NCBI GenBank assembly: GCA_034521975.1
Contig: JAXHLR010000002.1
Coordinates: 186,001-250,000, forward strand
Direction of reading: 5' to 3'
Length of the DNA: 64,000 nt
Source of the DNA: Acidimicrobiales bacterium
Lineage (GTDB): Bacteria > Actinomycetota > Acidimicrobiia > Acidimicrobiales > SKKL01
Both the position numbers and the translations under genes were made by a program. The first letter of the stretch is position 1. Each line of letters begins with the position of its first letter. Under the pieces are notes generated by a model that did no database searches, was not told the DNA's origin, and saw only the letters and a list, made by a program, of their open reading frames with translations. Positions 2,082-4,630 of the stretch are shown here, piece after piece.

Positions 2082-2781
2082 GCCCGAGATCGTCGCCGCC
2101 GATCTGGTGCGCGGGTGGCGGGTCGAACGGCGCCGGGGCACTGCGGCCGACCTGCACGATGCCGAGGTGCGCCCCGATGTCGAGGCATCGGTCTGGATCT
2201 GCGAGCCCCTGCGGCCGGCACTGGTGCTCGGGAGCACCCAGCGTGACCTGGTCGTGCCGCCGGGGCCTCTCGAACGGGGCGGCATCGATCTGGTTCGTCG
2301 CCGCAGCGGCGGGGGAGCGGTGCTGCTGCTTCCCGGACGGTCGACCTGGATCGACTTCGTGATCCCCGTCGGCCACTCGCTGTGGGACGCCGATGTCGGT
2401 CGCGCCACCCACTGGGTGGGCGACACCATGGCCCGCGCGCTCACCTCCTCGGGGATCGAGTCCGTGCCACATCGGGGAGCGATGCGCCCGAGCGATTGGT
2501 CCCGGCTGGTGTGCTTCGCGGGCCTCGGCCCCGGCGAGGTCGTCGATCCCCGTGGGCGCAAGCTGGTGGGCCTGTCCCAGCGGCGCACCCGTCACGCTGC
2601 TCGGTTCCAGACGGTCCTCTACCACCGCGGTGAGCCGTCCGAGATCGTCGACCTGCTCGGCCTCGGCGCACCCGAGGCCGAGCAGGTGGCCGCTGTGCTC
2701 GAGGCCGGCGCGCGGTCGGTGGCGGTGGACCCCGACGCCTTCGTCGAGGCGCTGCTCGGGTCGCTGCCCCTGTCTCGCTGA
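2074..2781 (+). CDS. Lipoate/biotin-protein ligase A/B family protein
   Basis: A 235-residue protein of the lipoate-protein ligase fold. Evidence: PALVLGSTQRD near residue 50, the RRSGGGAVLL segment near 72-81 (family RRxSGGGAVxH, lipoyl-AMP loop), and a glycine-rich GRKLVGLSQRR near 165-175 that aligns with the ligand-binding GxKIxGxAQRR. The histidine that often follows GGGAV is replaced by Leu. The enzyme would attach or transfer lipoyl or octanoyl groups to carrier lysines in the cytoplasm. The GTG at 2074 is preferred because it overlaps the menC stop by 8 bases and fits the family's length. Exact substrate unknown. Confidence 0.7.
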   Translation: MAEPEIVAADLVRGWRVERRRGTAADLHDAEVRPDVEASVWICEPLRPALVLGSTQRDLVVPPGPLERGGIDLVRRRSGGGAVLLLPGRSTWIDFVIPVGHSLWDADVGRATHWVGDTMARALTSSGIESVPHRGAMRPSDWSRLVCFAGLGPGEVVDPRGRKLVGLSQRRTRHAARFQTVLYHRGEPSEIVDLLGLGAPEAEQVAAVLEAGARSVAVDPDAFVEALLGSLPLSR

Positions 2782-2874
2782 ACCATCCGGCCCCCTGACC
2801 CGATCGCGTGACCTCACGCGGTCGAACTCGCGCGTTCCGCGCGCGGTTGTCGGGGGTCCAGAGGGGGCGAGTGG

Positions 2875-2903
2875 TTGACGAGTGGGAGCGAGGGGCGTAA
2901 AGT
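2875..2903 (+). promoter_or_regulatory. Predicted sigma-A type promoter of the dcw cluster
   Basis: TTGACG at 2875-2880 and TAAAGT at 2898-2903 are separated by exactly 17 bases. This is the best -35/-10 pair in the window. It lies 116 bases before mraZ and is covered by the MraZ-type repeats. Confidence 0.65.
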
Positions 2904-2927
2904 GGGGCGAAATGGAGGACAGGGGAG
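2883..2927 (+). promoter_or_regulatory. MraZ operator: five repeats at 10-base spacing
   Basis: Five 5-base blocks start at 2883 (TGGGA), 2893 (GGGCG), 2903 (TGGGG), 2913 (TGGAG) and 2923 (GGGAG), each separated by 5 bases. MraZ is known to bind tandem TGGGN boxes with 5-base spacers upstream of its own gene and to repress the dcw cluster. Three blocks start with TGG and two are degenerate. The array spans the -10 hexamer, so bound MraZ would block RNA polymerase. Confidence 0.7.
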
Positions 2928-3018
2928 CACAGGTTCCGTCCAGTCCCATCGCCCTCCACCCACCGACAGCCATCCATCCCGAACCCAGCAAGCGGCCTGA
3001 TCCACGAGAGGGGGCGCC

Positions 3019-3438
3019 GTGTTCCTCGGAACCTTCGAGCACTCCCTCGACGACAAGGGGCGAGTGGTGCTCCCGTCGGCGTTCCGCAGCGCGCTCGCTG
3101 AGGGAGGGGTGCTGGCCAAGCTCGACGACTGCATCGGTCTCTGGACCCCGGAGGAGTTCGAAAAGGTGGCATCGCTGCTGCAGGACAAGGTGAGAGAGGG
3201 CCAGGTCAGCCAGGACGCGCTGCGCGTCTTCGCCGCCGATGCCGCCACCGTCCGGCCCGACTCACAGGGCCGCATCTCGATCCCGCCCCGTCTCCGCGAG
3301 CACAGCGGTCTCGACCGCGAGCTGATCATCAACGGTCGACTCGATCGCATCGAGCTCTGGAGCGTCGAGCGGTGGTCCGGGGTCAGCACCGACGCCGACT
3401 CCAAGCTCGCCAGCGCAGTCTCGGTCATCGGGCTCTGA
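3019..3438 (+). CDS. mraZ: Transcriptional regulator MraZ
   Basis: A 139-residue protein with two swapped-hairpin AbrB-like halves. The first carries DDKGRVVLPSAFR near residues 11-23, the second DSQGRISIPPRLR near residues 80-92. These DxKGRxxxP motifs are diagnostic for MraZ. The family forms ring oligomers that bind tandem repeats and regulate the dcw cluster, mostly as a repressor. It is the first gene of the cluster. The GTG at 3019 gives the canonical MFLGTFEHSLDDKGR start. TGGGN-type repeats lie about 90-135 bases upstream. Confidence 0.95.
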   Translation: MFLGTFEHSLDDKGRVVLPSAFRSALAEGGVLAKLDDCIGLWTPEEFEKVASLLQDKVREGQVSQDALRVFAADAATVRPDSQGRISIPPRLREHSGLDRELIINGRLDRIELWSVERWSGVSTDADSKLASAVSVIGL

Positions 3439-3507
3439 CCATCGATCTCCACGTCCCGTCCCCGAACACCGACAGGTTCTGACACGACCACCCCCAACAC
3501 GGCGACA

Positions 3508-3632
3508 GCCGCTCATGTGCAACCCCCCGACCGGCGAGATGGAAGGCCCCTACTCCGCCCGCTTCCCATTCAGTCCGATCGGGGAGACATCCCGACGGGC
3601 GTTCGGCGGTCGGGGGGTTGCAGATGAGCGGC
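3508..3632 (+). promoter_or_regulatory. Long folded leader element upstream of rsmH
   Basis: Positions 3508-3537 pair with 3603-3632 with two mismatches (3517/3623 and 3534/3606), giving a stem of about 30 base pairs. The arms are C-rich (AACCCCCCGACC) and G-rich (GGTCGGGGGGTT). Inside, 3556-3561 pairs with 3596-3601, and 3562-3567 with 3581-3586 around a 13-base loop. The stem ends 11 bases before the GAGG ribosome-binding site of rsmH. A structured mraW RNA motif is known in actinobacterial leaders of this same gene; this may be a relative or an independent element. I could not test covariation. Confidence 0.6.
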
Positions 3633-3652
3633 GGTTCGATCCGAGGATGACG

Positions 3653-4630
3653 ATGGACAACCACACTCCCGACCACAGCGACCGTTCACCCGCCGACGGG
3701 TTCGAGCACCGACCGGTCATGGTCGAGGAGATCGTCGCGCTGTTCGAACCGGTCCCAACCGGACTGGTGGTCGACGCCACGATCGGGGGCGGCGGACACG
3801 CGCACGCGGTGCTGGACTCCCGGCCCGATCTCGTCCTGCTCGGGCTCGACCAGGACGCCGACGCCATCGCCGCGGCCACCGAGCGCCTGGCCCCCTTCGG
3901 CGACCGGGTGACGATCCGTCGAGCCCGGTTCGACGAGCTCACCCAGGTGGTCGAGTCCATCGGGCACCTCGACGTGGTGGCCGTGTTGTTCGACCTCGGC
4001 GTCAGTTCCTGGCAGCTCGACGACGCCGCCCGGGGCTTCAGCTACCGCCGGCCCGCACCGCTCGACATGCGGATGGACCAGCGGTCCGAGCGCAGCGCCG
4101 ACGACGTGGTGAACCGCTACTCCGAGCGGGACCTGAGCCGGGTCCTTCGCACCTACGGCGACGAGCGCTTCGCCCGTCCGATCGCGCGGGCGATCGTCGC
4201 CGCGCGCCCGGTGCACACCACCGTCGACCTCGCCGAGGTCGTCCGGTCCGCCATCCCCGCCCCGGCCCGGCGTCGGGGTGGACATCCCGCCACCCGCTCG
4301 TTCCAGGCCATCCGCATCGAGGTCAACCAGGAGCTGGCCGTGCTGCCCAGCGCGATCGACCAGGCCGTCGCCCTGCTCGTCCCGGGCGGACGGTGTGCGG
4401 TGCTGACCTACCACTCGGGCGAGGACCGCATCGTGAAGGAACGGTTCCTGGTGGCCGAGTCCGGTGGCTGCACCTGTCCCGATCATCTGCCCTGCGTCTG
4501 TGGCGCGGTGCCCAAGGTGCGTCTGTTGCGTCGCGGCGGTTGGACCCCGACCGCTGACGAGCGTGCCACCAACCGTCGGGCCGAGAGCGCGCGCCTGCGC
4601 GCGGTCGAGAAGCTGGAGGCCGCGGCGTGA
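3653..4630 (+). CDS. rsmH: 16S rRNA (cytosine-1402-N4)-methyltransferase
   Basis: A 325-residue RsmH (MraW), which methylates N4 of C1402 in 16S rRNA using SAM. FEHRPVMVEEIVALF near residues 18-32 is the usual opening. VVDATIGGGGHAHAVL near 42-57 is the SAM-binding loop, and LFDLGVSSWQLDD near 112-124 and RGFSYRRPAPLDMRMD follow. The C-terminus ends in a typical RRAESARLRAVEKL. The ATG at 3653 is chosen because GAGG ends 6 bases upstream; an ATG at 3647 abuts the GAGG. The frame stays open upstream through the leader fold, which makes longer starts possible but less likely. Confidence 0.93.
   Translation: MDNHTPDHSDRSPADGFEHRPVMVEEIVALFEPVPTGLVVDATIGGGGHAHAVLDSRPDLVLLGLDQDADAIAAATERLAPFGDRVTIRRARFDELTQVVESIGHLDVVAVLFDLGVSSWQLDDAARGFSYRRPAPLDMRMDQRSERSADDVVNRYSERDLSRVLRTYGDERFARPIARAIVAARPVHTTVDLAEVVRSAIPAPARRRGGHPATRSFQAIRIEVNQELAVLPSAIDQAVALLVPGGRCAVLTYHSGEDRIVKERFLVAESGGCTCPDHLPCVCGAVPKVRLLRRGGWTPTADERATNRRAESARLRAVEKLEAAA

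Follow-up and report, generated by a model that had tools for sequence, protein, structure and literature searches.

What is the very long hairpin that fills the leader between mraZ and rsmH in this stretch of Acidimicrobiales DNA (64,000 nt, called here the window)? The initial annotation had offered three readings: a lineage variant of the mraW RNA motif, a cis-regulatory RNA of a new kind, and a site of processing.

A structured RNA between mraZ and rsmH

The long stem and the two nested hairpins described by the initial annotation are present where it placed them (Table 1): the stem, P1, has 25 consensus pairs between its two arms and encloses the hairpins P2 and P3, and the finding of Pfam MraZ and MraW methylase domains on either side confirms the position between mraZ and rsmH. 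The segment 3480-3660 folds with a predicted energy of -94.4 kcal/mol, compared to -70.1 +/- 4.4 kcal/mol for dinucleotide shuffles (z -5.6), and none of 200 shuffles was as stable. P1 closed by a tetraloop cap alone is predicted at about -61 kcal/mol. What had been overlooked is a G-rich ribosome-binding sequence together with an AUG (3624) inside the 3′ arm of P1. The distance from the end of P1 to the GAGG at 3643-3646 is 10 bases. The element is present as a single copy in its genome, the two further matches being its two arms matching each other.

mraZ and rsmH are probably in one operon. No promoter-like site was detected in the spacer between them, the sole promoter-like site being upstream of mraZ, and a scan of 2780-3720 for terminator-like sites (a GC stem followed by a U-run) gave none. 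The site upstream of mraZ, at 2875-2907, is a sigma-70-like promoter TTGACG-17-TAAAGT overlapping GTGGG repeats that resemble MraZ-binding boxes, loose-pattern matches to which are no commoner in the window than expected by chance.

Table 1. Features of the rsmH leader and its neighbourhood (coordinates within the window).
Feature	Position	Strand	Basis or remark
mraZ, upstream gene	3019..3438	+	Pfam PF02381, E 5e-26
Whole structured leader RNA, three-way junction P1/P2/P3	3508..3632	+	z -5.6; 34-sequence alignment with 27 covarying pairs; R1 match E 9e-28
P1 5′ arm (GCCGCUCAUGUGCAACCCCCCGACCGGC)	3508..3535	+	Pairs with the 3′ arm; compensatory changes in 21 of 25 P1 pairs
P2 hairpin, stem GAUGGAAG/CUUCCCAUU (3538-3545/3562-3570)	3538..3570	+	92.6% of cells paired
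P2 loop GCCCCUACUCCGCCCG, core CUCCGCCC at 3553-3560	3546..3561	+	Core nearly invariant; C3558 corresponds to 16S C1402
P3 hairpin, GGGGAGAMAUCCC type (3574-3583/3591-3599)	3574..3599	+	Compensatory changes in 5 of 8 pairs; missing from short forms in other orders
P1 3′ arm, with G-rich ribosome-binding sequence (3612-3617) and AUG (3624-3626)	3605..3632	+	Covariation; predicted unpaired probability; conserved AUG/GUG
8-codon ORF AUG AGC GGC GGU UCG AUC CGA GGA UGA	3624..3650	+	Starts in P1; UGA overlaps the rsmH AUG at 3647
rsmH (mraW), 16S rRNA C1402 N4-methyltransferase	3653..4630, start 3647 or 3653	+	Pfam PF01795, E 1e-103

The hairpin is a real, conserved RNA structure. In an alignment of 34 sequences supporting 41 pairs, 27 of these pairs carry compensatory changes with both sides altered, and 94.1% of cells are paired, compared to 84.1% in shuffles and 33-46% for structures slid by 1-3 columns. 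G-U pairs (109) are far more frequent than A-C mismatches (22), and therefore the constraint acts on RNA of the rsmH strand; the fold is thus supported by covariation on the RNA strand, as expected of a structured cis-regulatory RNA. At genus level, the RNA of a congener is 96.8% identical, compared to 49% for the spacer 5′ of the RNA and about 75-77% for rsmH, and two of the four differences within the RNA (3525 C to U, 3615 G to A) form one compensatory pair.

The initial annotation had named two observations that would count against a functional RNA, arms that do not covary and coding conservation in the rsmH frame. The first is contradicted by the 27 compensated pairs. As to the second, an ORF from 3515 to 4630 does run open across the leader, as a coding sequence in the rsmH frame would require; however, in 20 of 96 loci a stop interrupts this frame within the motif, and the motif lengths are evenly spread modulo 3, so that the leader is not conserved as coding sequence. 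An inverted repeat acting at the level of DNA, or a mobile repeat, is equally hard to reconcile with an element that is single copy, holds a fixed position throughout a class and shows the above excess of G-U pairs, and we give practically no credence to any of these explanations.

Comparison with relatives extends the finding from one genome to a class. When 79 related genomes were searched with the RsmH protein and the upstream DNA was read, the same element was found before rsmH in most Acidimicrobiales families. A covariance model of the leader RNA (R1) has matches in 206 of the 298 genomes searched from the order and in 243 of a sample of 296 from the class Acidimicrobiia; where coordinates were given, nearly all second matches within a genome are the same hairpin on the opposite strand. 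In a phylum-wide sample of about 400 genomes R1 had no credible match outside Acidimicrobiia, all of its hits falling within the class. A second model (R2), made from short forms, gave four weak matches beyond the class, which are unrelated sequence, none of them adjoining rsmH. Of 97 loci, 96 have rsmH directly downstream by tblastn; the last, represented by a short stretch of sequence, has it directly downstream by coordinates. In other orders, among them some genomes of about 1 Mb, the form is shorter (about 90-103 nt) and lacks P3. With strong covariation, class-wide presence and rsmH adjacent wherever checked, the suggestion of a new cis-regulatory RNA is supported, and the presence at rsmH of a class-wide structured RNA that Rfam 15 lacks is established. 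In the open-access literature, which was the limit of our search, no account of the Acidimicrobiia rsmH leader RNA was found.

Several variants were seen among these loci. Seven loci with short forms lacking P3 have a further conserved segment in common, GNGCCAGCG, located between P2 and P1 on the 3′ side, and in two loci of one family the inner hairpins are replaced by another pairing (GAUGGAGUUUUCAACUCCGCCCGCUCC), with CUCCGCCC retained. In five relatives without the RNA, read by eye, the stop of mraZ and the start of rsmH overlap or come close to doing so (GTGA/ATGA), an arrangement suggesting that direct mraZ-rsmH translational coupling may take the place of the leader where it is missing. 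An Acidimicrobiia-type rsmH leader is also found in the record CAMBWL010000008.1, titled ‘Bifidobacterium breve’, and this MAG title is probably wrong.

Relation to the mraW RNA

The mraW RNA motif, RF01746 (Weinberg et al., 2010; PMC2864571), the function of which has been described as unknown (PMC5640933), resembles the present leader in being a cis RNA of Actinomycetota located between mraZ and rsmH, with a long GC-rich stem and a C-rich apical loop, and it is this common site and architecture that argue for kinship. In addition, R1 weakly matches (E 0.009) a Streptomyces locus at which RF01746 has a match below threshold; we take this R1 match as that of a generic hairpin. However, RF01746, judged by the gathering score of its Rfam covariance model, gave no hit in the window, at 12 loci representing this gene junction or in 198 Acidimicrobiales genomes, the last search having found its control, Corynebacterium glutamicum; nor did R1, conversely, reach beyond Acidimicrobiia in the roughly 400 genomes of the phylum. 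Rfam 15 as a whole gave no match on the window, and a permissive scan of 2700-4000 returned three sub-threshold, implausible matches only. The folds differ as well: the mraW RNA of Actinomycetales is an unbranched hairpin with the loop CUUCCCC, the Kibdelosporangium copy of which ends well before the rsmH start, whereas the leader of Acidimicrobiia is branched into P1/P2/P3, carries the loop CUCCGCCC and buries a start codon. The lineage-variant reading is thus not supported, and descent of the leader from RF01746, be it as a divergent member or as a homologue, is largely refuted and appears very improbable. The conserved loop of the Kibdelosporangium mraW RNA, ACCUUCCCCGG, matches 16S rRNA 1377-1387 at 9 of 11 positions, about 15-25 nt before C1402, a match that ties with another 16S site.

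The buried start site and the P2 loop

In the predicted fold a GGGGG ribosome-binding sequence and an AUG are buried within the 3′ arm of P1; the predicted probability of being unpaired is 0.000 for the G-run, and for the AUG it is 0.005. Such an arrangement recurs in the class, as 80 of 96 loci have an AUG or GUG within the 3′ arm, mostly at the same structural place and preceded by a G-rich ribosome-binding sequence paired to the 5′ arm; about 16 of the 96 have neither codon there. In 50 of 96 loci the arm start codon shares the rsmH frame, which is open from there on, and elsewhere it begins a short ORF. The latter is the case in the window, where the GAGG belonging to rsmH itself falls outside P1, so that repression would require coupling via the 8-codon ORF.

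P1 varies freely with compensation while the P2 loop stays nearly invariant. Of 97 loci across the class, 83 have exactly CUCCGCCC, UCCGCCC is found in all 19 short forms, and the loop is kept both in forms without P3 and in the lower-GC (0.44) loci of small genomes. Pairing between the P2 and P3 loops was considered as the cause of this invariance and ruled out, since the loop persists without P3.

The CCGCCC of the loop is identical to 16S rRNA 1399-1404, and RsmH is the enzyme that methylates 16S C1402 (PMC5053481). Since the assembly of the window's genome lacks a 16S gene, relatives and E. coli K-12 were used for comparison. Among E. coli 16S, 23S and 5S rRNA the 11-mer UACUCCGCCCG has its single best ungapped match at 16S 1395-1405 (9 of 11), and the pattern GYACACACCGCCCGTC was found in the 16S of 8 of 12 relatives tested, the segment being GTACACACCGCCCGTC in those eight. 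The comparison was made after the loop had been seen. Composition-matched shuffles reach the C1402-site match with P about 0.01-0.02 in ungapped comparison, and with P 0.03 to 0.13, depending on loop form, in gapped local alignment (264, 79, 394 and 119 of 3000 shuffles); an equally good match somewhere in 16S and 23S is common by chance, and the nearly invariant loop U mismatches 16S A1398. Such modest P values mean that the similarity by itself proves nothing. More weight comes from the neighbouring gene, which encodes the enzyme acting on that very site, and from the translational autoregulation reported for sgm, the gene of a further 16S methylase (Kojic et al., 1996, doi 10.1128/jb.178.18.5493-5498.1996, by its title as cited in PMC6804068 and PMC2791848). 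There is no sign that CCGCCC is a general signal of rsmH genes, as it is upstream of rsmH in only 7 of 70 other rsmH loci, mostly from other phyla. The short-form linker was also considered as a mimic of 16S, through GUGCCAGC of the 530 loop; this was rejected, since there are equally good or better matches elsewhere in rRNA.

Sgm and RsmH are both 16S rRNA methyltransferases acting in the C1400 region, Sgm at G1405, near C1402. The sgm mRNA is said to carry CCGCCC near its ribosome-binding site, identical to 16S 1399-1404, and deletion of this sequence reportedly abolishes autorepression. The present leader likewise places an rRNA target sequence in the mRNA near a ribosome-binding site, at modest statistical support. 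The two systems differ in that Sgm is a resistance methylase (m7G1405) and a single gene, whereas here a housekeeping enzyme, RsmH, is joined to a covarying RNA conserved over a class. In the autogenous leaders of ribosomal-protein and ermC type, an rRNA-binding protein feeds back on an rRNA-like site in its mRNA; those leaders involve other proteins and RNA sites, and binding of RsmH to its leader is hypothetical.

Probable control of rsmH translation and alternative explanations

We consider it rather probable that the leader is an intercistronic cis-regulatory RNA, ancestral to Acidimicrobiia, which controls the translation of rsmH, possibly autogenously. Translational control through the buried start site is the best-supported function and a likely one. 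We infer that translation is limited by P1 and that some factor works through the loop. In the scenario proposed here, P1 would hold a ribosome-binding sequence and start codon, rsmH's own in about half the species and, in the window, those of the short ORF coupled to rsmH, and because the start site is so held, the default state would limit initiation. The P2 loop ACUCCGCCCG would be kept single-stranded as a candidate recognition site, and when unmethylated 30S subunits become scarce, free RsmH would bind its own mRNA and keep P1 closed.

RsmH is hypothesized as the ligand, and of the candidates it is the most likely one because the loop carries the CCGCCC of its 16S substrate site (1399-1404, target C1402); its chances may nevertheless be put at somewhat below even. 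Two reports count against it: RsmH is reported to need the assembled 30S subunit and not naked 16S rRNA (PMC5053481), and in vitro the RNA binding of METTL15, the human RsmH homologue, shows no sequence specificity (PMC10828496). We advance only tentatively the full proposal that RsmH controls its own synthesis through a class-wide leader mimicking its decoding-centre substrate (16S 1396-1405), so that its output would track the supply of unmethylated 30S subunits.

A nearly invariant loop on a stem that varies with compensation would fit any trans-acting ligand, whether a protein other than RsmH, a small molecule, the ribosome itself, or a small RNA with complementarity to the C-rich loop. 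The preference of RsmH for assembled 30S and the modest significance of the 16S similarity both favour such a ligand, which is possible if on the unlikely side, given that rsmH is the sole constantly associated gene and that its substrate site shares CCGCCC, autogenous control being the simplest reading of both. The third suggestion of the initial annotation, a processing site, would make P1 a substrate of RNase III type, at which cutting of the mraZ-rsmH mRNA uncouples mraZ from the downstream cluster, with the loop as a structural detail. A stem of about 25 pairs covarying along its length, placed between two cistrons in a spacer without a promoter-like site, would suit this purpose; the nearly invariant, unpaired CUCCGCCC loop and the AUG kept at one position of the arm are not accounted for, and we regard processing as an improbable explanation of the element.

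The leader represents an RNA family new to Rfam 15, in a class of mostly uncultured bacteria with genomes down to about 1 Mb, and it heads the cluster of genes for division and the cell wall. It would offer a direct test of how an enzyme that modifies the decoding centre is matched to the supply of ribosomes, and its loop predicts that RsmH would act on the leader, perhaps even methylating the loop C itself.
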